Source: Acidovorax sp. 210-6 (lineage in GTDB: Bacteria; Pseudomonadota; Gammaproteobacteria; Burkholderiales; Burkholderiaceae_C). From it: 64,000 nucleotides of DNA. The notes under the pieces are model-generated. The model made no database searches, had not been told where the DNA came from, and worked only from the letters and a program-made list of their open reading frames with translations. Every line of letters begins with the position of its first letter. Positions within the stretch are counted from its first letter, which is position 1. Location: contig NZ_JAACJE010000001.1 of NCBI RefSeq assembly GCF_010020825.1, forward strand, positions 1,612,001 through 1,676,000, read 5' to 3'. A program made the translations under genes and the position numbers. Shown piece after piece: positions 323 through 61,478 of the stretch.

Positions 323-1648
323 ATGGTTCTGCGTTTTCTGATCTTTCTCTTCTGGCAATTGCTGGGGGGCGCCATCGGCTGGTGGCAGGGTTCTGCCTGG
401 GGTGCTGCGCTGGGCGCCGCTGTGGCCGCCTGGGTGTGGTTTGTGCTGGACATGTGGCGTGGCGGGCGCATGTTGCGCTGGCTGCGCCAGGGGGATGTGC
501 AGCGAGGTCTCGAGCTCTACGGACTGTGGGGCGAGGCCGTGGAACGTGTGCGCCGTCTGGTGCGCCAGCAGCAGGATCTGGTGCGGGAGAGCGACAAGCG
601 CCTGCAGGACATACTGGGCGCCTTGCAGGCTTCACCCAATGGGGTGGTGCTGCTGGATGAGGAAGGGCGCATCGAATGGTGCAACGACACGGCGGCGGAG
701 CATTTCGGCTTTGATCCGCAGCGCGATGCCCTGCAATCCATCCGTAACCTGGTGCGCGATCCGGAGTTCAATGCTTACCTGGCCGAGCATGACTATGCCC
801 GTGACGTGGTGCTGGAAGGGCGCGGCAGCACGCCTTCGCGGCCGGTGCGCGTCTCCGTGCATGTGCACACCTATGGCGAGGGCCGTGCCTTGCTGCTGTC
901 GCGCGATGTCACGGCGCTGGAGCAGGCCGAGGCCATGCGGCGCGACTTCGTCGCCAACGTGTCGCACGAAATCCGCACCCCACTGACCGTGCTGACCGGG
1001 TTTGTCGAGACCTTGCAGACGCTGGACCTCGAAGCCCCCGACCGCGCGCGCTACCTTGCCATGATGGCGCAGCAGGCGGCGCGCATGCAAAGCGTGGTGC
1101 AGGATTTGCTGACGCTGTCGCGCCTGGAGGGCAGCCCTTTGCCGGGCATGGCGGAGTGGACGCCGGTTTCCAGCCTGTTGCAGCGCTGCGAGGAGGAGAG
1201 CCGGGCGCTGTCGGCCCTGCTCACGCAGAACCAGGCCCAGGGCCATGTGCTGGAGTTTGATACCGGCGCCGCCCAGTGGCAGGACATCGCAGGCAGTCCA
1301 GCCGAACTGCAAAGCGCTTTGTCCAACCTCATCAGCAACGCAGTGCGTTACACCCCAGGCGGCGGGCGCATTGTGGTGCGTTGGAAGCGAGCCGCCGATG
1401 GTGGCGCTGTGTTCTCTGTGCAGGACACGGGCCCGGGCATTGCCCCCGAACACATTCCCCGACTGACCGAGCGCTTCTACCGCGTGGATCGCAGCCGCTC
1501 ACGTGAAACGGGAGGCACCGGCCTGGGCCTGGCCATCGTCAAGCATGTGCTGCAGCGCCACGGCGCGAGCCTGGACATCCGCAGCACCCTGGGCAAGGGC
1601 TCCACCTTCAGCGTGCACCTTCCTCCGGCACGCTTGCGCTCGAGCTGA
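323..1648 (+). CDS. phoR: Phosphate regulon sensor histidine kinase PhoR
   Basis: A 441-residue membrane sensor kinase. Two hydrophobic stretches (about residues 3-20 and 26-44) form the short membrane anchor typical of PhoR, followed by a PAS domain (about 93-195). The HisKA domain has the phospho-acceptor His215 in FVANVSHEIRTPLT. The ATPase domain shows the N box (NLISNAVRYTPGGG), the G1 box (DTGPGIAP) and the G2 box (GGTGLGLAIVKH). It is expected to control PhoB phosphorylation in response to phosphate supply. The start is the ATG after a GTGC-rich leader with no strong ribosome binding site. Its last 41 bases overlap the 3' end of the convergent MATE gene. Confidence 0.93.
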   Translation: MVLRFLIFLFWQLLGGAIGWWQGSAWGAALGAAVAAWVWFVLDMWRGGRMLRWLRQGDVQRGLELYGLWGEAVERVRRLVRQQQDLVRESDKRLQDILGALQASPNGVVLLDEEGRIEWCNDTAAEHFGFDPQRDALQSIRNLVRDPEFNAYLAEHDYARDVVLEGRGSTPSRPVRVSVHVHTYGEGRALLLSRDVTALEQAEAMRRDFVANVSHEIRTPLTVLTGFVETLQTLDLEAPDRARYLAMMAQQAARMQSVVQDLLTLSRLEGSPLPGMAEWTPVSSLLQRCEEESRALSALLTQNQAQGHVLEFDTGAAQWQDIAGSPAELQSALSNLISNAVRYTPGGGRIVVRWKRAADGGAVFSVQDTGPGIAPEHIPRLTERFYRVDRSRSRETGGTGLGLAIVKHVLQRHGASLDIRSTLGKGSTFSVHLPPARLRSS

Positions 1649-2996
1649 GCAACGCCCGGCGCAGCATGGCTGCGAAGACCACTGCGGTGACCACCAAAGC
1701 GGCGGCGCTGGCGGCCCAGAAGGGGACGGGGGACGCCAGTGAGGCTACGGGCCCAAACCCATGGTAAGCCCACAGGTAGCCGCCACCCAGGCCCACGCCC
1801 CACAGCATCACGCCATACACCACCAGGGGTGCCAGCGTGATGCGAAAGCAGCGCAGCAAAAAGATGCACAGGGTCTGCACCGCATCTGCCAGGTGGTACA
1901 GCGCCACCCAGCCCAGCAGGCCCGCGGCAGCCATCACCACTTGGGCATCGTTGGAATAGACCGATGCAATCCAGTGATTTGCTATAAAAACAATAGCTGC
2001 TAGCGCAATACCGATAAGCGTTAGAAGCCTAAAACCTATATAAACAGCCTGCCGCGCATGCGCCGCTTGTCCTGCACCGCGCCAGTAGCTCACGCGGGCA
2101 CTGGTGGCGATGGCCAGCGAAAGCGGCACCATGTACAACACGGCGGCCATGTTGGCGGCAATCTGGTGTGCGGCCGAGGCCAGCGTGCCCTGGCGCGCAA
2201 TGAACAAGGCCATCAGCGTGAACGAGGTCACTTCCACGGTGACGGCCAGCGCCGAAGGAATCCCCAGCCGTGCAAAGGCGGCCAGTTGCGCACGGTTGGG
2301 TGGTTCCATGCGCTGCCACACCTGCAAAGGGGTGTACATCGCTTGCGTGCGCAGCAGCCACAGGGCCACGGCCAGCATGCCGCAGTTCACCACCAGGGTG
2401 GCCCAGCCGCAGCCGACGACCCCCATCGCGGGCATGCCCGCACCGCCAAACGTCCACCAGATGGACAGCGGAATCTTGACCAGCAGTGAAACCACCTGCA
2501 GCCAGGTGACCCACTGCGGGTGCCCCAGGGCCTGGTTGAGCGTGCTGAAAACGCGGAACAGCAGGGCGGGAGGCAGCGCTAGGGCCAGCACGGCCAGGTA
2601 CTGCTCCACACCGGGGCGAAGGGCCTCGGGCACCTGGGTCCAGGCCAATACCGGGTCCGGGTGCAACAGCACGGCCATGCCGGGCACGCAGGCCAGGGCG
2701 CAGAGGTACAGCGACTGGCGCAGCGAGCCGCCAATGGCCTGCGGCTTGCGCGCGCCGCGCAGTTCCGCCCAGATGGGCAGCAGCGCGCTCAGCATGCCCA
2801 GCAGGGGAACGTACACGCTGATGTAGAGGGCCGAGCCGATGGCCAGCGCAGCCAGCGACTCTTGTGCATGGCGGCCTGCGACGATGGTGTCCGTCACACC
2901 AAAGGCCATGACCGCCAGTTGGCCGACGAGCACCGTGCCCGCGTGGCGCGCGATCAAGGAGCGGTCTGACAGGCCCGACTCAGTCTTGTGGGACAT
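1608..2996 (-). CDS. MATE family efflux transporter
   Basis: A 462-residue polytopic membrane protein with about 12 hydrophobic helices in two similar halves, as in MATE/NorM exporters, which expel cationic drugs or metabolites using Na+ or H+ gradients. The start at MSHKTESGLSDRS is chosen because it only slightly overlaps the upstream gene (17 bases), while a longer reading of 17 codons would run further into it. Residues about 321-340 (RLLTLIGIALAAIVFIANHW) are encoded by a full copy of an interspersed repeat that is otherwise intergenic in this window. The reading frame stays open and the segment still looks like a membrane helix. The 3' end overlaps phoR. The substrate cannot be told from sequence. 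Confidence 0.88.
   Translation of the reverse strand: MSHKTESGLSDRSLIARHAGTVLVGQLAVMAFGVTDTIVAGRHAQESLAALAIGSALYISVYVPLLGMLSALLPIWAELRGARKPQAIGGSLRQSLYLCALACVPGMAVLLHPDPVLAWTQVPEALRPGVEQYLAVLALALPPALLFRVFSTLNQALGHPQWVTWLQVVSLLVKIPLSIWWTFGGAGMPAMGVVGCGWATLVVNCGMLAVALWLLRTQAMYTPLQVWQRMEPPNRAQLAAFARLGIPSALAVTVEVTSFTLMALFIARQGTLASAAHQIAANMAAVLYMVPLSLAIATSARVSYWRGAGQAAHARQAVYIGFRLLTLIGIALAAIVFIANHWIASVYSNDAQVVMAAAGLLGWVALYHLADAVQTLCIFLLRCFRITLAPLVVYGVMLWGVGLGGGYLWAYHGFGPVASLASPVPFWAASAAALVVTAVVFAAMLRRALLSSSASVPEEGAR
1979..2034 (+). repeat. Short interspersed repeat, copy A (inside the MATE gene)
   Basis: Contains TTGCTATAAAAACAATAGCT, then GCTAGCGC and a degenerate second arm ending in AGAAGCC. 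It matches the intergenic copy at 49257 almost base for base over its first half, but lies inside the coding region of the MATE exporter without breaking the frame. Confidence 0.8.
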
Positions 2997-5313: not shown

Positions 5314-6576
5314 TCAGCCGCCGCGGCGCATGGCCTCGAAGAATTCCACGTTGGTCTTGGTTTCCCGCATCTTCTTGATCATGAGCTCCATGGACTCGAT
5401 CTCGTCCATGTTGTACATGAACTGGCGAAGGATGCGGGTCTTCTGCAGAATTTCCGGGGGCAGCAGCAGCTCTTCGCGGCGCGTGCCGCTCTTGTTGAGC
5501 TCGATGGCCGGGAACACGCGCTTTTCGTAGAGGCGGCGGTTCAGGTGGATTTCGCAGTTGCCGGTACCCTTGAACTCTTCAAAGATCACTTCGTCCATGC
5601 GGCTGCCGGTATCGACCAGTGCCGTGGCAATGATGGTCAGCGAGCCGCCTTCCTCGACTTTGCGCGCCGCGCCGAAGAAGCGCTTGGGGCGCTGCAGCGC
5701 GTTGGAGTCCACGCCGCCCGAGAGCACCTTGCCGCTGGAGGGCACCACGTTGTTGTAGGCCCGTGCCAGGCGCGTGATGGAGTCGAGCAGGATGACCACG
5801 TCCTTCTTCAGCTCCACCAGGCGCTTGGCGCGCTCGATCACCATCTCTGCCACATGTACGTGGCGTGCGGCGGGCTCGTCGAAGGTCGATGCAATGATTT
5901 CGCCCTTGACCGAGCGTTGCATCTCGGTCACTTCCTCGGGGCGCTCGTCCACCAGCAGCACCATCAGGTGCACGTCGGGGTTGTTGGCCGTGATCGCGTG
6001 GGCGATGTGTTGCATCATCACCGTCTTGCCGCTCTTCGGCGGAGCGACGATCAGCGCACGCTGGCCGCGCCCGATGGGGGCAATGATGTCGATGATGCGG
6101 CCGGTGATGTTCTCTTCGCTCTTGATGTCGCGCTCCAGCCGCATGTGTTCCTTGGGGAACAGCGGCGTGAGGTTTTCGAACATCACCTTGTGCTTGTTCT
6201 GCTCGGGCGGGCCACCGTTGACCTTGTCGAGCTTGGTCAGGGCAAAGTAGCGCTCGCCGTCCTTGGGTGTGCGCACCTCGCCCTCGATCATGTCGCCGGT
6301 GTGCAGATTGAAGCGACGCACCTGGCTGGGACTGATGTAGATGTCGTCCGTGCTGGCCGTGTAGCTCGTGTCGGGGCTGCGCAGGAAACCGAAGCCGTCC
6401 GGCAGGATCTCCAGCACACCGTCGGCAAACACCTGCTCGCCCGCCTTGGCGCGCTTCTTGATGATCGCAAACATCAGTTCCTGCTTGCGCATGCGACCGG
6501 TGTTTTCGATGTCGAGTTCCTCGGCCTGCTTGAGGACTTCAGACACATGCAGTGCCTTGAGTTCGTTGAGATGCAT
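5314..6576 (-). CDS. rho: Transcription termination factor Rho
   Basis: A 420-residue hexameric RNA helicase that ends transcription at unstructured C-rich RNA. The start [14 protein letters not shown] is chosen over an upstream ATG because it matches the normal Rho N-terminus and has GGAG at a suitable distance. The RNA-binding cold-shock-like domain contains [13 protein letters not shown]. The ATPase core has Walker A APPKSGKT, Walker [17 protein letters not shown] and the Q- and R-loop regions ([22 protein letters not shown]), ending in the usual [18 protein letters not shown]. Length is the same as in other proteobacteria. trxA lies upstream on the same strand, the common trxA-rho order. 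Confidence 0.98.
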
Positions 6577-13860: not shown

Positions 13861-13995
13861 GGTCTGTCTTGTGGGTGACTGGAAACGCGTTCATTGTCGC
13901 GTGCGGGACCGGCGCGGCGCATGGGGGTTGTCACCTGCGTGTCTGCGCGGGCGCGCAAGTGCATGCCGGGGCGCATGCCACGGCCATGTTTCAAG

Positions 13996-14053
13996 AAAAA
14001 TAGGGCTCCAGCGCCCTTGATACATGCGCTGTAAGCTATCAAAAATATAGCAA
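13996..14053 (-). repeat. Short interspersed repeat, copy B
   Basis: On the minus strand it reads TTGCTATATTTTTGATAGCT followed by a second arm GCGCTGGAGCCCTATTTTT. It lies between the enoyl-CoA hydratase stop and the Crp/Fnr start. Confidence 0.75.
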
Positions 14054-14078
14054 TGGCGGCAAGGCGCCGCAGCCTGCA

Positions 14079-18650: not shown

Positions 18651-18666
18651 GCGTTCAGGGTCTGTA

Positions 18667-18724
18667 TGCTATTGATTTGATAGCTGCTAGCGCTTATCCA
18701 TCAAGCGCTGGAGCCTGATTTGGC
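18667..18724 (+). repeat. Short interspersed repeat, copy C
   Basis: Reads TGCTATTGATTTGATAGCTG, CTAGCGC and then CAAGCGCTGGAGCCTGATTT. It sits between the convergent fimV-like and thiE stop codons. Confidence 0.85.
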
Positions 18725-18733
18725 TTGAATTTT

Positions 18734-24270: not shown

Positions 24271-24341
24271 GTGGACTCCTTGGCAGTGCGGCACAAGGAA
24301 GGTCCGGGCCATGCGCGAAGGGGCATGGCAATCGAGGACGG

Positions 24342-24424
24342 GCTTCCCTGCGCGAGGATGATCTCAATCAGGTTCAAAGGGACTCTCTCAGCCCCTTGCC
24401 AGCGTTGGCAGGGGCACCCCCAGC
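24342..24424 (-). promoter_or_regulatory. TPP riboswitch upstream of cytX
   Basis: On the minus strand: GGGGGTGCCCC, GGGGCTGAGAGAGTCCC, TTTGAACCTGATTGAGATCA, then CGCGCAGGGAAGC. This is the full thi-box order. It ends about 70 bases before the cytX start. The P3 helix is CTGCCAACGCTGGCAAG. Confidence 0.95.
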
Positions 24425-24576
24425 GAATGCACCGCTGTGCGGCGGTGCGGGGCGCATTCTAGCGGGGGCGCACGAAGTGTGCTGATGCGCGTTTTGGGCG
24501 GAGGGCGTCAGCCTTGGGTGGCGCCTTCCGCTGTCGGTGTGGCAAGGTCGACCAGCGCGCACAGGGAGGTGTGACA

Positions 24577-28779: not shown

Positions 28780-30141
28780 TCAGTTCACCAGCACGGCGCC
28801 TGCGGTGGCGTTGCTGGCCGTATCCACCAGAATCAGCGAGCCCAGCACGCGCGCCTGGCTGAACGGTGCAGCGGGCAGGGGTTCCTGCAGCAGCAGCTCC
28901 ACATGGCCGATGGCGTTGGGGTCCAGCCGCTCGGCGTCTTCCTCGGCCAGGGTATTGATGTCCAGCCGGTGCACCACGCGGCGCACCTTGGCCTTGACCC
29001 AGCGGTGGCCGTGCAGCGCCCAATAGACGCGGCCCGCCAGCAGCGGTTCGTTGTCCATCCAGGCCACGGTGGCCTTGATCTCGCGCTGGCCGGGCCATGC
29101 GGGTACGGCGGCAGGTGCGTCAAAGTCGTCTTCGGCCACGGCGGCCTGCGTGGGTGCGGCCACGATCCAGTCGCCGCGCGAGACGTCCACCTCACGGTCG
29201 AGGATGATGCCCGCGCTCTCGCCCGCACCCACGGTGGTGGGGCGGCGTGCGTGGTCCAGCACCTGGGCCACGGTGGCCAGTTGCCCGCTGGGGAAGACCT
29301 GCACCGCGCTACCCGGCTGCACGCTGCCTGCGGCCACACGGCCCCAGAACACGCGGCGACCCTGGCTGGTGTCGGACGAAGACGAGAACTTCTCCACCCA
29401 CTGCACCGGGAAGGCCAGCGGCAGGCCGGTGTCGGCCGGGGTGTTGGGCAGCAGCTCGAGGATCTGCAGCAGGCTCGGGCCTTCGTAGCCGCACCAGCCG
29501 CTGTGGCGATCCACCACGTTCCAGCCCTTGAGGGCCGAGACGGGCACGGTGGCGGCCACCTGAATGCCGGCGTCCTGGGCGAACTGCGCCAGCGCGGCGC
29601 CGATGTGCTGGAAGGCGAGCTGCGGGTCTTCCACGGCGTCGAGCTTGTTCACGGCAAACACCAGCGAATGCACGCGCAGCAGGTGCACCAGCAGGCTGTG
29701 GCGGCGCGTTTGTGGCAGCAGCGCGAGTTGCGGGTTTTTCCAGTCGAGCTTGGTGGCATCCACCAGCACCACGGCGGCGTCGGCCTGCGAGGCGGCGGTG
29801 ACCATGTTGCGTGTGTACTGCTCGTGGCCCGGCGCGTCGCCGATGATGAACTTGCGCTCTTCGGTGGCAAAGTAGCGGTAGGCCACGTCGATGGTGATGC
29901 CCTGTTCGCGTTCTGCACTGAGGCCGTCGGTCAGCAGGGCCAGGTCCACCTCGCCACCACGCTGCACACCGGCCAGGTGGTCCTGCAGCACGGCGCGGCT
30001 GTCCACCAGCAGGCGGCCGATCAGCGTGCTCTTGCCGTCGTCCACGCTGCCGCAGGTAATGAACTTCAGCGCTGAAATATGGTCATTTTGGGCTGCATCG
30101 CCCGCCGTTGCTGCGGTATCAGCTATCAAATTCATAGTCAT
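28780..30141 (-). CDS. cysN: Sulfate adenylyltransferase subunit 1 (GTPase)
   Basis: A 453-residue GTPase subunit of ATP sulfurylase. It has the P-loop GSVDDGKSTLIG (about residues 31-42), DAPGHEQYTRNM, and NKLD, followed by two beta-barrel domains. It drives sulfate adenylation by CysD at the cost of GTP. The length shows no fused APS kinase (CysC) domain. The start ATG overlaps the cysD TGA by one base (TGATG), so coupling is likely; the much longer open frame upstream is a shadow of cysD. The first 20 codons (NLIADTAATAGDAAQND) are encoded by sequence that resembles the short interspersed repeat. Confidence 0.95.
   Translation of the reverse strand: MTMNLIADTAATAGDAAQNDHISALKFITCGSVDDGKSTLIGRLLVDSRAVLQDHLAGVQRGGEVDLALLTDGLSAEREQGITIDVAYRYFATEERKFIIGDAPGHEQYTRNMVTAASQADAAVVLVDATKLDWKNPQLALLPQTRRHSLLVHLLRVHSLVFAVNKLDAVEDPQLAFQHIGAALAQFAQDAGIQVAATVPVSALKGWNVVDRHSGWCGYEGPSLLQILELLPNTPADTGLPLAFPVQWVEKFSSSSDTSQGRRVFWGRVAAGSVQPGSAVQVFPSGQLATVAQVLDHARRPTTVGAGESAGIILDREVDVSRGDWIVAAPTQAAVAEDDFDAPAAVPAWPGQREIKATVAWMDNEPLLAGRVYWALHGHRWVKAKVRRVVHRLDINTLAEEDAERLDPNAIGHVELLLQEPLPAAPFSQARVLGSLILVDTASNATAGAVLVN
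30087..30137 (-). repeat. Short interspersed repeat-like sequence, copy E (5' end of cysN)
   Basis: On the minus strand CTATGAATTTGATAGCTG, then CGCA and a divergent second arm with GGGCGATGCAGCCCAAAATG. The first arm matches the repeat well; the rest is degenerate. It encodes codons 2-19 of CysN. Confidence 0.45.
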
Positions 30142-31785: not shown

Positions 31786-32217
31786 TCATGCGGCCTCCCG
31801 GGCAAACAAGGGGCGCGGCTCCAGCATGTCGCCCTGGTAGAAGCCTTGGTAGCGTGCCAGTTGGCGCTCGGCCGCGTCGGCCTGGATACCGGGGGCCAGC
31901 ACTGCGCTGCTGAACCCGCTGCGCTGCATTTGCAGGAGCTGGTCGATCAGCACGTCGCCCGTGGCACGCAGGTCGCCCGCAAAACGGTAGCGGCGGCGCA
32001 GCAGCACGGCCTGGCTGAAGGCGCGGCCGTCGGTGAACTTGGGGAAGACCAGCTCGATGCGGTCCACCCCTTCGAGGGCGCCGCTGCCCGCCAGTTCGGC
32101 CAGGTCGGCATCGTTGGCGATTTGCAGCACTTTTTGGCTCTCAGCGACCGTATCTATTGCGTCAGCAGCTATTATTTTCATAGTGAATCCATCGTGGAAT
32201 ACAGGGGCGGTGCTCAT
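31786..32217 (-). CDS. DUF934 family protein (sulfite reductase-associated)
   Basis: A 143-residue soluble protein of the DUF934 family, which in proteobacteria is nearly always encoded beside the siroheme sulfite reductase cysI and is thought to help the reductase; the biochemical role is not known to me. Features are a central RIELVFPKFTDGRAFSQAVLLRRRY and a C-terminal RYQGFYQGDML. Its ATG overlaps the cysI TGA (ATGA). A second candidate start lies at the Met of MKIIAADAID (32181), where family proteins normally begin; codons 12-29 there are encoded by a clear copy of the short interspersed repeat. It ends before cysH. Confidence 0.88.
   Translation of the reverse strand: MSTAPVFHDGFTMKIIAADAIDTVAESQKVLQIANDADLAELAGSGALEGVDRIELVFPKFTDGRAFSQAVLLRRRYRFAGDLRATGDVLIDQLLQMQRSGFSSAVLAPGIQADAAERQLARYQGFYQGDMLEPRPLFAREAA
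32132..32183 (-). repeat. Short interspersed repeat, copy F (inside the DUF934 gene)
   Basis: On the minus strand CTATGAAAATAATAGCTGCT, then GACGCAATAGATACG and GCTGAGAGCCAAAAA. It matches the repeat at 1979 closely and supplies the ATG of MKIIAAD. Confidence 0.75.
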
Positions 32218-42938: not shown

Positions 42939-43579
42939 AAAACATACTTTTCTTATGGCTTTTTTGAGGAACTTGGTGCCTGAGAGCTTGGCTGAGTGCG
43001 CCGCCTTGGCAGAAGCGATGGGGCTCACCCAGCATCGAATCCTGCTGCAACGCACCAAAGCCAGTGTTCGTGGGGTCTGCGCGCTGGCCAACGGCCTGGC
43101 CACCCCACTGCTGCGGGGAGAACGGTGCATACGCAAGGGCTGCCGTTCCCGGGTTGCCAGCCGCAGATTCAATCCCAGAGGTGCCAGGGTTCTGTTCTGA
43201 ATGCGCCAAGGGTGGCCCACGCCAGGAGACCCGTCAGTAGAGTGCAATGTAACTAAGATACATGTTTTGCGCCTTCCGCAGGTGCCTCCAACCGCAAGTG
43301 CCCTCATTTTTGCGTTCCCATTCGGTGACGGTGATGCGTTATGTTCACTTGGGAATTTCCGATTTTATTTATCGGTTTCTGTGGTTCGCTTGATTTGGTT
43401 GCGCATTATCTTGACTAAATTACTTTGGAATTGGGGGCGCGGTTTTCTTGCATCCTGAAAGCGAGGGAGCGTTGGAGCAGGGCGCAGCGGGGCGGATGAA
43501 AGCGACCGGCCGACGCCGGGGCTTGCCAGGCCATGGGGCAGTGGGTGCACAGGGGGTGGTGGGGCACCAATTTTTAGGG

Positions 43580-43633
43580 AAAATGGCTTCTGAAGCCCGT
43601 ATTCAAAGCGCTGGTAGCTATAAAAAACATAGC
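43580..43633 (-). repeat. Short interspersed repeat, copy G
   Basis: On the minus strand it reads GCTATGTTTTTTATAGCTAC, CAGCGC and then a second arm ending GCTTCAGAAGCCATTTT. It lies upstream of the lipoate ligase-like gene. Confidence 0.75.
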
Positions 43634-43775
43634 GTGTTGCTTGCGCTGGGGTTTGCCAATTTGACTTTCAGCCCTGGCAGCAGGATAGTTCGGCGCGCCA
43701 TCGGCGACCCCTTTTCACCCTCGGAGCCTTCCCATCGACACCGTACAGCAAGAGCAGGCCTGGAACACGCTCCAG

Positions 43776-49256: not shown

Positions 49257-49314
49257 ATTGCTATAAAAAATATAGCTGCTAGCGCTTTCCAGTCAAGCGC
49301 TTGAAGCCATTTTT
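49257..49314 (+). repeat. Short interspersed repeat, copy H
   Basis: ATTGCTATAAAAAATATAGC, TGCTAGCGC and CAAGCGCTTGAAGCCATTTT: the clearest copy in the window and a good reference for the family. Confidence 0.9.
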
Positions 49315-49377
49315 CCGCAAAGAATTCTGATGAGAGAGCCTGGCCCTGGACTGGAGAGCGAGTGGTTTTATATGCGA

Positions 49378-53396: not shown

Positions 53397-53444
53397 GCGG
53401 CGCCCCTGTCGGGCGTGCCAGCCGGGGGTTCGATAAGGTGAAGA

Positions 53445-53951
53445 ATGATTGCAAATTGGTTTGACCACGCGCCGCGCCGCGTGCTCGCGTTCATCAGCGC
53501 CGCGTGCATTGCCATGCTGGCGTTTGGCCTGTACCTGCAGCATGTGGTGGGGCTGGAGCCGTGCCCCATGTGCATTGTGCAGCGTTATGCTCTGATTTTT
53601 GTAGCTATCCTCGCAGGACTGTCAAGCGCCAGCGGCAGAAAAGGCTGGTGGATGAGTCTCACCGCACTGGCGGTGCTGAGCAGCGGTTTTGGCGCATTCA
53701 CGGCGGCGCGCCAGAGCTGGCTGCAGTGGTTTCCGCCCGAGGTGTCCATGTGCGGGCGTGACTTCTACGGGATGATCGAGAACTACCCGATCCGCCGCGC
53801 CATTCCCATGATCTTCAAGGGCTCGGGCGACTGCACGGCCATCGACTGGACCTTCCTGGGAGGCTCCATCGCCAACTGGTCCTTCGTGTGGTTTGTGGTG
53901 TTTGGCTTGGCCATGCTGTGGCTGTTGGTGCGCGGCCTGCGGACCCGCTGA
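53445..53951 (+). CDS. dsbB: Disulfide bond formation protein DsbB
   Basis: A 168-residue membrane protein with four helices. The first redox pair is in EPCPMCIVQRY and the second in MCGRDFY and GDCTAID, as in DsbB, which reoxidises periplasmic DsbA by passing electrons to quinone. Residues about 48-66 (ALIFVAILAGLSSASG, helix 2) are encoded by sequence that looks like a worn copy of the short repeat. It stands between cysA and the HD-GYP gene. Confidence 0.93.
   Translation: MIANWFDHAPRRVLAFISAACIAMLAFGLYLQHVVGLEPCPMCIVQRYALIFVAILAGLSSASGRKGWWMSLTALAVLSSGFGAFTAARQSWLQWFPPEVSMCGRDFYGMIENYPIRRAIPMIFKGSGDCTAIDWTFLGGSIANWSFVWFVVFGLAMLWLLVRGLRTR
53586..53640 (+). repeat. Possible worn copy I of the short interspersed repeat (inside dsbB)
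   Basis: TGATTTTTGTAGCT, CTCGCA, then TCAAGCGCCAGCGGCAG and AAAAGG follow the layout of the family but with many changes. It is the weakest copy. Confidence 0.3.
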
Positions 53952-59996: not shown

Positions 59997-60072
59997 CATA
60001 CCTGCCTGGGCCTCGGAAACGGCCCGCCATGCTGGGCGAAACACGCCTGCTCCGCCGTTGTCACCAGATGTT

Positions 60073-60127
60073 TTGCTATCATATTAATAGCTATTTGCGC
60101 TTTCTGGAGCTGGGCTGCACCCTGAAA
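60073..60127 (+). repeat. Short interspersed repeat, copy J
   Basis: TTGCTATCATATTAATAGCT, TTGCGC, then CTGGAGCTGGGCTGCACC. It is a shortened variant between argA and the DUF2946-like gene, just after the argA stop. Confidence 0.6.
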
Positions 60128-60131
60128 ACGC

Positions 60132-61478
60132 TTAAAGCTTCTTGACCAGCACCTGGCTGCGCCGATCCCAGTTGTACTTGCGCTTGCGGGCGTCGGGCAG
60201 CCACTCGGGGTCCACCACCACGAAGCCGCGCTTGATGAACCAGTGCATGGTGCGCGTAGTGAGCACGAAGATGGACTCCAGCCCCAGGTTGCGTGCGCGC
60301 TGTTCGATCCGCTTGAGCAGCTTTTCGCCGTCGCCCGTGCCCTGGCTTTGGGGCGAGACGGTGACAGCGGCCATTTCGCCGGTGCGTTTTTCGGGGTAAG
60401 GGTAGAGCGCGGCGCAGCCGAAGATCACGCCGTCGTGCTCGATGATGGTGTAGTTGGCGATGTCGCGTTCGATCTCGGTGCGGTCGCGCTTGACCAGGGT
60501 GCCGTCCTTCTCGAAGGGTTCGATGAGCTGCAGGATGCCACCCACGTCGTCGGCCGTGGCCTCGCGCAGTTCCTCCAGCTTCTCGTCCACGATCATGGTG
60601 CCGATGCCATCGTGCACATAGATTTCGAGCAGCAGCGCGCCGTCCACGGCGAACGGGATGATGTGGCTGCGCTCCACGCCGCCCTGGCAGGCCTTCACGC
60701 AGTGCTGCAGGTAGAAGGCCGTGTCGGTGGGGCGCTGGCTCGGCGGCACGCGCGCCAGCAGTTGCTTGGCCTGGGCCAGCGGCAGCTCGGTGTCGATGGG
60801 GTTGTCCTCGCCCTCGGGAGCCTCGGGGTCGGTGCGGATGCCGGGCACCTCGGACAGGAACAGCAGCTTGTCGGCCTTGAGCGCAATGGCCACCGAGGTG
60901 GCGACTTCTTCCATGCTCAGGTTGAAAGCCTCGCCCGTGGGCGAGAAGCCGAAGGGCGAGAGCAGCACCAGCGCGTCCATGTCCAGCGCGCGCTGGATGC
61001 CCGCCACGTCCACCTTGCGCACCAGGCCGGAGTGTTCAAAGTCCACCCCATCCACAATGCCCACCGGCCGCGAGGTAACGAAGTTGCCCGAGATCACCCG
61101 CACCGTGGAGCCTGCCATGGGCGTGTTGGGCAGCCCCTGGCTGAAGGCGGCTTCGATCTCGAAGCGCAATTGCCCGGCGGCCTCTTGGGCGCAGTCCAGT
61201 GCCACCGAATCGGTGATGCGGATGCCGTGCGAGTACTTGCCCGCATGGCCCTTGGCCGCCAGTTGCTCGTTCACCTGGGGCCGAAAACCGTGCACCAGAA
61301 CGATTTTTACGCCCATGGCCTTGATCATGGCCAGGTCCTGGGCAATGCTGTGCAGCTTGCCCGCCGCAATGGCCTCACCCGTCAGCCCCACCACAAAGGT
61401 CTGGTGCCGAAACTTGTGGATGTAGGGCGCCACCGACCGGAACCAGGGCACAAAGGTGAAGTTGAAGACGGTGGACAT
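60132..61478 (-). CDS. argA: Amino-acid N-acetyltransferase (N-acetylglutamate synthase)
   Basis: A 448-residue enzyme for the first step of arginine synthesis. The N-terminal amino acid kinase-like domain has FRHQTFVVGLTGEAI and VLVHGFRPQVNEQLAAKG, and SPFGFSPTGEAFNLSMEEVA. The C-terminal GNAT domain has AALYPYPEKRTGEMAAVTVS and GTGDGEKLLKRIEQRA. The two-domain layout and length match classical ArgA, which acetylates glutamate and is inhibited by arginine. It is a single gene on the minus strand. Confidence 0.95.
   Translation of the reverse strand: MSTVFNFTFVPWFRSVAPYIHKFRHQTFVVGLTGEAIAAGKLHSIAQDLAMIKAMGVKIVLVHGFRPQVNEQLAAKGHAGKYSHGIRITDSVALDCAQEAAGQLRFEIEAAFSQGLPNTPMAGSTVRVISGNFVTSRPVGIVDGVDFEHSGLVRKVDVAGIQRALDMDALVLLSPFGFSPTGEAFNLSMEEVATSVAIALKADKLLFLSEVPGIRTDPEAPEGEDNPIDTELPLAQAKQLLARVPPSQRPTDTAFYLQHCVKACQGGVERSHIIPFAVDGALLLEIYVHDGIGTMIVDEKLEELREATADDVGGILQLIEPFEKDGTLVKRDRTEIERDIANYTIIEHDGVIFGCAALYPYPEKRTGEMAAVTVSPQSQGTGDGEKLLKRIEQRARNLGLESIFVLTTRTMHWFIKRGFVVVDPEWLPDARKRKYNWDRRSQVLVKKL

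Follow-up and report, generated by a model that had tools for sequence, protein, structure and literature searches.

How does a conserved DNA word of about 65 bp come to lie in frame inside a membrane exporter? The MATE gene of Acidovorax sp. 210-6 contains a copy of a short repeat that also occurs between genes, and the copy could reflect the insertion of an element, the replacement of older coding sequence, a hairpin acting as RNA, or mere likeness between a protein helix and a repeat. The locus was analysed within a stretch of 64,000 nucleotides (hereafter the window), whose coordinates are used below for all positions that carry no locus label. Its main features are as follows.

1608..2996, minus strand: MATE exporter coding sequence (open reading frame of 462 aa plus stop; Pfam MatE, E 1.4e-42; NorM homologues; twelve long helices in the model)
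1978..2044, plus strand: full motif copy, antisense to the gene, equivalent to MATE codons 318-340 (weight-matrix score 69.0)
1981..1985, plus strand: left block GCTAT, motif positions -12 to -8, a block conserved in 87 aligned copies
1993..2006, plus strand: core ATAGCTGCTAGCGC, exact match
2016..2029, plus strand: second block AAGCGTTAGAAGCC, 9 bases past the core (a spacing of 9 in 87 of 97 copies)

The product of 2996-1608 has both the MatE domain and a twelve-helix fold (Pfam, NorM alignments and an AlphaFold2 model), and the motif copy at 1978-2044 lies in frame within this minus-strand gene. Scored with a matrix of 67 positions derived from 87 copies of the Acidovorax sp. 210-6 genome, the MATE copy reaches 69.0 and the intergenic copy at 49257 reaches 70.9, against control maxima of 8.1 in the reversed window and 8.5 in 110 reversed loci (702 kb, both strands, same matrix), which bears out the in-frame copy proposed in a preliminary description of this DNA. 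That description had also read the segment as a membrane helix, and codons 318-340 do fall almost entirely within residues 311-338, a predicted helix and the ninth of the twelve long membrane helices (TM9) in the AlphaFold2 model (29 aligned sequences, mean pLDDT 89.6); the antisense frame of the copy encodes A-L-A-A-I-V-F-I-A. A normal-looking helix where MATE proteins have one might owe its likeness to the repeat to ordinary protein conservation or to chance, but a score of 69 against control maxima of 8-9, together with repeat-free genera that show other residues and GC-rich codons, leaves that explanation with a negligible probability.

The core itself has seven matches at up to two mismatches within the 64,000 nucleotides, against 0.57 expected, and the matrix locates these further copies in the window.

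13988..14054, minus strand: motif copy, score 62.1
18665..18731, plus strand: motif copy, score 81.6, with no spanning open frame above 150 aa
22930..22996, minus strand: motif copy, score 72.2
30075..30141, minus strand: motif copy in a 647-aa same-strand open frame, read in an I-A-D/T type frame, score 41.4
32121..32187, minus strand: motif copy, score 42.9
43570..43636, minus strand: motif copy, score 49.2
49257..49323, plus strand: the intergenic copy to which the MATE segment was first compared, score 70.9, with no spanning open frame above 150 aa
53586..53652, plus strand: weak motif copy in a hydrophobic segment of a 169-aa open frame (53442-53948), score 27.1
60072..60138, plus strand: motif copy, score 42.6, with no spanning open frame above 150 aa

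The open frame at 53442-53948 is presumably DsbB-like, judging from its CPMC..QRYA motif.

Across the genome, the motif has the layout TGCTAT - A/T tract - core ATAGCTGCTNGCGC - 9 bases - AAGCGCTAGAGGC - A/T tract - AAA, and the gap of 9 bases between core and second block is kept in 87 of 97 copies. The exact core occurs 100 times in the 4.21-Mb genome, 50 times per strand and never in the reversed control, and allowing one mismatch raises the count to 268 against 15 in the control. A matrix scan of the window and 20 stretches of the near relative G023 (382,606 bases, coding fraction 0.89) yields 59 copies above a score of 18, or 154 per Mb, with a control maximum of 9.4. Most copies are either next to a gene end or in frame within a gene. 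Among the 66 exact-core copies that lie between two called genes, 40 are in tandem, 20 in convergent and 6 in divergent arrangements (convergent versus divergent, p 0.009), and many intergenic copies start directly at a stop codon. A bias towards one chromosomal strand was rejected on the evidence of G029, whose 88 exact copies mix both strands. Some further observations concern the distribution of the motif. Of 99 exact cores, 37 lie in the one-fifth of the chromosome most distant from dnaA (contig C2, KS p 0.004, from raw positions in one genome), and the 26-base left half is found exactly in 21 stretches of a viral collection, with one match each. At L039 (5260-5370), L054 (4390-4500) and L122 (2875-2985), opposite-strand motif-like matches partly overlap and show 'TTCAGAT..AAA' ends, and the repeat at these sites is perhaps related to the motif.

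The partly complementary arms, the excess of convergent over divergent sites (20 against only 6 among the 66) and the many copies that abut stop codons would suit a bidirectional terminator or another hairpin acting as RNA, lodged in some genes by happenstance. We consider this improbable. Three variable pairs of the hairpin arms match no more often than shuffles in 87 copies, and copies fold with -14.5 and -12.8 kcal/mol, against -14.3 kcal/mol for random stretches of the same loci. Furthermore, terminators within exporter and housekeeping genes would be expected to harm. A search of the window for known RNA families (Rfam) gave only a tRNA and the riboswitch listed here, with no family matching the motif, and in four loci with copies it gave one weak match (E 0.24, L160:182-280) away from the motif.

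24328-24431, minus strand: TPP riboswitch (Rfam)

The preliminary description had taken the repeat to be otherwise intergenic. On the wider sample this is wrong, and a one-off event in MATE is not supported either, since many other genes also contain the motif in frame. Of 97 exact-core copies, 22 fall inside open reading frames with coding signal on both sides (four of them, in L017, L179, L180 and L198, doubtfully so, in probable antisense or weak reading frames), a simple gene caller places 27 of 96 in genes, and the matrix scan of 382,606 bases places 29 of 58, a share somewhat too high since orthologues of MATE, NadE, TruB and LytTR guided the choice of some stretches. By the gene-caller and matrix-scan counts, coding DNA is depleted of the motif relative to its 0.89 share. 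Two frames account for 17 of the 22 in-gene exact-core copies, 13 of them antisense and reading A-x-A-A-I (or M) and 4 sense and reading (L/F)-I-A-A-(C/G)-A, with other frames in L017, L179, L180, L198 and L200; the same two frames recur in 24 of the 29 in-gene copies of the matrix scan. The next sense-strand frame runs into a TAG within the core, so that part of this frame choice needs no special cause. Solved homologues identify the host genes as two RsmB-type methyltransferases, a DppD-like ABC ATPase, ThiL, RlmI, CobU, YfiH and enoyl-CoA hydratase, and further hosts are, as we take them from their sequence, TruB, NadE, AroA-Cmk, a LytTR regulator and ComEC. L174 has two motif copies about one gene apart, both in the A-x-A-A-I frame and both encoding Ala/Pro-rich protein segments.

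A second membrane protein is affected in relatives, through the gene that stands beside MATE.

323..1648, plus strand: sensor kinase gene (open reading frame), which we take to be PhoR-like

The matrix scan of the window found no motif in this gene of Acidovorax sp. 210-6. Fifteen of the 110 loci, all of the Variovorax/Xenophilus clade, have a motif scoring 24-46 in the first membrane helix of their PhoR-like gene, near positions 5580-5700 (L060, L067, L072, L075, L077, L079, L090, L096, L099, L100, L103, L104, L106, L108 and L110). The distance from the start codon to an LD anchor is 41 residues in all 14 scored motif carriers, and among 18 other scored rows it is 41 in 16 and 40 in 2; the remaining 54 of the 86 rows have no anchor pattern and were left unmeasured. 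The copy in the PhoR-like gene is in frame and independent of the one in MATE, with, on this comparison, no change in protein length. Most of the counted genomes of this clade are motif-poor.

Whether copies arrived by insertion or by replacement can be read from length comparisons. In the MATE gene, orthologues with and without the repeat align ungapped over the segment, with the exceptions of L046, in which a gap is made good nearby, and of L134, L138 and L139, which are distant or partial. The NorM structures 4huk and 3mkt are likewise ungapped against the segment. In the repeat-free Variovorax, Delftia and Paracidovorax citrulli the residues differ at this place and the DNA is GC-rich. Plain insertion into MATE is rejected on these ungapped alignments, and the earlier proposal that the repeat had been inserted or had replaced coding sequence, and was kept as protein, retains its second half: the alignment of orthologues returned relatives without the repeat that differ in sequence at equal length, and the opposite pattern, with distant genera sharing the amino acids under clearly different DNA, was not seen in the MATE orthologue alignments. 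Taken with the helix made by the repeat, these results indicate that repeat DNA overwrote part of the MATE coding sequence and was retained as protein. As far as sequence comparison reaches, they show that the motif took the place of older coding sequence without a change in length, at a date old enough for several genera to be involved.

The other genes present a more varied picture. For TruB, the repeat-poor genomes G002, G005, G008 and G026 are of equal length at the motif, and of the eight order-level rows listed, seven are shorter by 3-4 aa and one is longer by 1. For NadE, G002 and G008 are equal and G005 and G026 one residue longer, with nine order-level rows ranging from 7 shorter to 4 longer. 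For LytTR, G002, G008 and four other motif-free genus rows are equal, two rows are one residue longer, G003 has a long unrelated stretch, and the nearest order-level row is equal. For AroA, there is no difference from the family outgroup G026, G002 and G005 lack 3 residues, six order-level rows are 1-5 shorter and three motif-bearing rows are 3-6 longer. The AroA core encodes SASYF(L/I)AAGAI, which all six order-level outgroup rows have with other codons; the protein motif therefore came first, and it is the DNA that changed. Against the best solved homologues, the two RsmB types differ at the motif by 0 and -2, the ABC ATPase by -1 and RlmI by -2, and there are gains against the best solved, distant homologues in ThiL (+7), enoyl-CoA hydratase (+10), CobU (+14) and YfiH (+21 aa). 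These four gains led us to abandon the view, based on five genes, that the motif never arises by insertion. The length argument is carried by deep outgroups, because a relative of equal length without the repeat might once have carried it and lost it by decay. On these alignments, most tested genes are apparent cases of replacement at constant or near-constant length, YfiH appears to have gained about a whole unit and three genes are intermediate; MATE is, on the same basis, the cleanest replacement case among the tested genes.

The gains in ThiL, enoyl-CoA hydratase, CobU and YfiH, the last amounting to roughly one unit, make insertion a serious rival. In this account a palindromic, MITE-like element would have entered genes in frame many times in the manner of Rickettsia palindromic elements, with nearby residues lost at or after insertion and the peptide kept. 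Its palindromic layout, the depletion of coding DNA relative to the 0.89 share and the many copies that begin at a stop codon are in its favour, and formation in place has against it that AroA exceeds most order-level outgroups by 1-5 aa and TruB by 3-4 aa. The unchanged lengths of MATE, LytTR and PhoR, the differences of 0 to -2 in the RsmB types, the ABC ATPase and RlmI, and an AroA core that overlies an ancient protein motif argue the other way. Only 11 of the 97 copies could be compared with G023, and all 11 are present there, 7 of them in genes and one with a changed core, so that no young insertion is seen. Together with the upkeep of the motif at synonymous sites, described below, and with no transposase tied to it, this leaves repeated insertion, in our judgement, on the unlikely side.

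The codons of the MATE segment point to a word maintained as DNA. Over ten codons, GC3 in the 41 repeat-type rows is 0.20, against 0.82 gene-wide, and codon 338 is ATA in all 41, while codons 334 and 339 are constant by construction, the rows having been selected on them. A quick tree of 90 MATE proteins, computed with residues 315-345 left out, requires 7 changes for the repeat-type rows, 5 of them forced by well supported branches, against a shuffled mean of 30. These rows include Acidovorax, Giesbergeria, Comamonas granuli, Diaphorobacter, Alicycliphilus and some Paracidovorax, and the MATE repeat is missing from the P. citrulli group, Delftia and Variovorax.

Third positions were pooled over MATE (31 rows), TruB (17), NadE (16), LytTR (15) and AroA (20), after listed repeat-poor genomes and outgroups had been excluded. 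The motif base is kept at 43, 65, 60 and 86% of third positions in information classes of <0.3, 0.3-0.7, 0.7-1.2 and >1.2 bit, against 33, 25, 9 and 27% expected from codon usage; the last class is inflated, because copies were picked by exact core, and the 0.7-1.2 bit class lies outside the core. Upkeep rises with information (Spearman 0.29, p 0.003, 104 positions), with no gene significant alone, and at some informative sites the third base departs from the motif (motif base kept at MATE codon 330, 0/24; AroA 262, 0/20; MATE 321, 4/31). The rows being related, this synonymous-site pattern is support and not proof. It suggests that the upkeep acts on the DNA word, and that the peptide may simply be tolerated.

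Some lineages have the motif in abundance and others no more than background, and its presence in MATE follows this difference. With motif-rich defined as at least 8 excess core matches per Mb, and among the 61 genomes with both measures (of 90 tree rows), the MATE motif is found in 30 of 32 motif-rich and in 1 of 29 motif-poor genomes (Spearman 0.79). The exceptions are L054 and L106, which are motif-rich without it, and L105, which is motif-poor with a MATE motif of score 18. The link could reflect shared descent, because supported branches provide only four independent pairs (a mean of 2.6 the same way and 0.0 opposite, p 0.25). Within a Paracidovorax set (L064, L073, L089, L058, L107 and L044), five genomes have 7-19 core matches, no more than the control, and L044 has 69 against 13. 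P. anthurii (L058) and P. konjaci (L107), both poor genomes, have half-decayed MATE copies with scores of 5 and 1. There seems to have been a genome-wide loss of the motif within the Paracidovorax group, with decaying MATE relics in these two species.

The reading we lean towards, with modest confidence, is that the Comamonadaceae have a long DNA signal with fixed spacing, formed in place within genes and kept as DNA, of which the MATE segment is a single copy. A putative protein would read the motif in double-stranded DNA, as a signal for the nucleoid, for recombination or for DNA uptake, and copies would be built and kept by selection or biased transmission wherever the encoded protein can bear the motif. 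The motif would be tolerated in protein because its frame spells an Ala/Ile/Leu helix: the antisense frame A-L-A-A-I-V-F-I-A would have offered a ready-made membrane helix, so that TM9 could accept the motif, the peptide being a passenger of the DNA word. A broader version of this reading, put forward tentatively and with less assurance, is that a hitherto undescribed multi-block signal of about 65 bp, with a putative dedicated reader in chromosome organisation, recombination or species-specific DNA uptake, may have rewritten, in place, parts of what could be hundreds of proteins in each genome. Membrane helices of MATE, probably one in the DsbB-like protein and, in the Variovorax clade, one in PhoR would be among these parts, and enzymes and transporters of an otherwise ordinary kind would be left with DNA-shaped segments of 20 residues. 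If a long DNA signal does overwrite coding sequence at constant length, the proteins of this family would be partly shaped by a demand at the DNA level, and residues in motif segments, such as MATE TM9 or parts of AroA or TruB, should not be taken as functional adaptation. Sister genera in which this helix either has or lacks the word would then be a natural experiment, with gains and losses tracking genome-wide abundance, and the motif is precise enough to fish out the putative binding protein.

No description of the motif was found in the open-access literature searched, and it can be set against several known systems. Like REP/RAYT systems, it is short, palindromic and present in hundreds of copies, of which many adjoin a gene end, but its arms lack covariation and many of its copies lie in genes. 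No RAYT was found next to motif copies; the sole Y1_Tnp of the genome is on a small contig (C1), and its locus (3,366 bases) contains neither TAGCTGC nor ATAGCTG when searched for these exact words. With neither motif words at that locus nor covariation in the arms, a REP/RAYT identity is unsupported. As regards MITEs, all 11 comparable sites were occupied in G023 and offered no empty site. The BRE of Bordetella, Polaromonas, Delftia and others is, like the motif, a Burkholderiales repeat with some copies within coding sequences, and is described as about 75-91 bp long, 69% GC, often in tandem and present in at most 29 copies per genome (PMC3110155). On that description, the AT tracts, fixed spacing and far higher copy number of the motif set the two apart.

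Rickettsia palindromic elements (RPEs) are described as units of about 150 bp that add a translated insert and occur in frame in unrelated genes with a recurring peptide (PMC10969869). The motif resembles them, as so described, in being a short palindromic repeat with many copies in frame inside unrelated genes, but it is about 65 bp long and its DNA shows upkeep at synonymous sites. Against the same description, MATE and most other tested genes gain little or no length: in place of an inserted peptide, the change is 0 in MATE, PhoR and LytTR and 0 to -2 aa in four others, YfiH (+21) being the exception.

The motif can also be compared with DNA uptake sequences, the USS of Pasteurellaceae and the DUS of Neisseriaceae, for which the source gives cores of 9-10 bp and 1,465 and 1,892 copies in two model genomes (PMC7811141). 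Going by that account, the motif is like them in being a word spread over the whole genome and in combining AT tracts with a strict core (PMC7811141), and also in being lineage-bound and in occurring both inside and outside coding sequence. The over-represented, strand-symmetric, strict-core word that characterises such sequences is present here (100 exact copies, 50 per strand, none in the reversed control). No literature on DNA uptake sequences in Comamonadaceae was found among the open-access sources searched. Uptake sequences span 9-12 bp at about one per kb, whereas the blocks of the motif extend over about 65 bp at 154 per Mb in 383 kb, and in length and density the motif does not match the known uptake signals.
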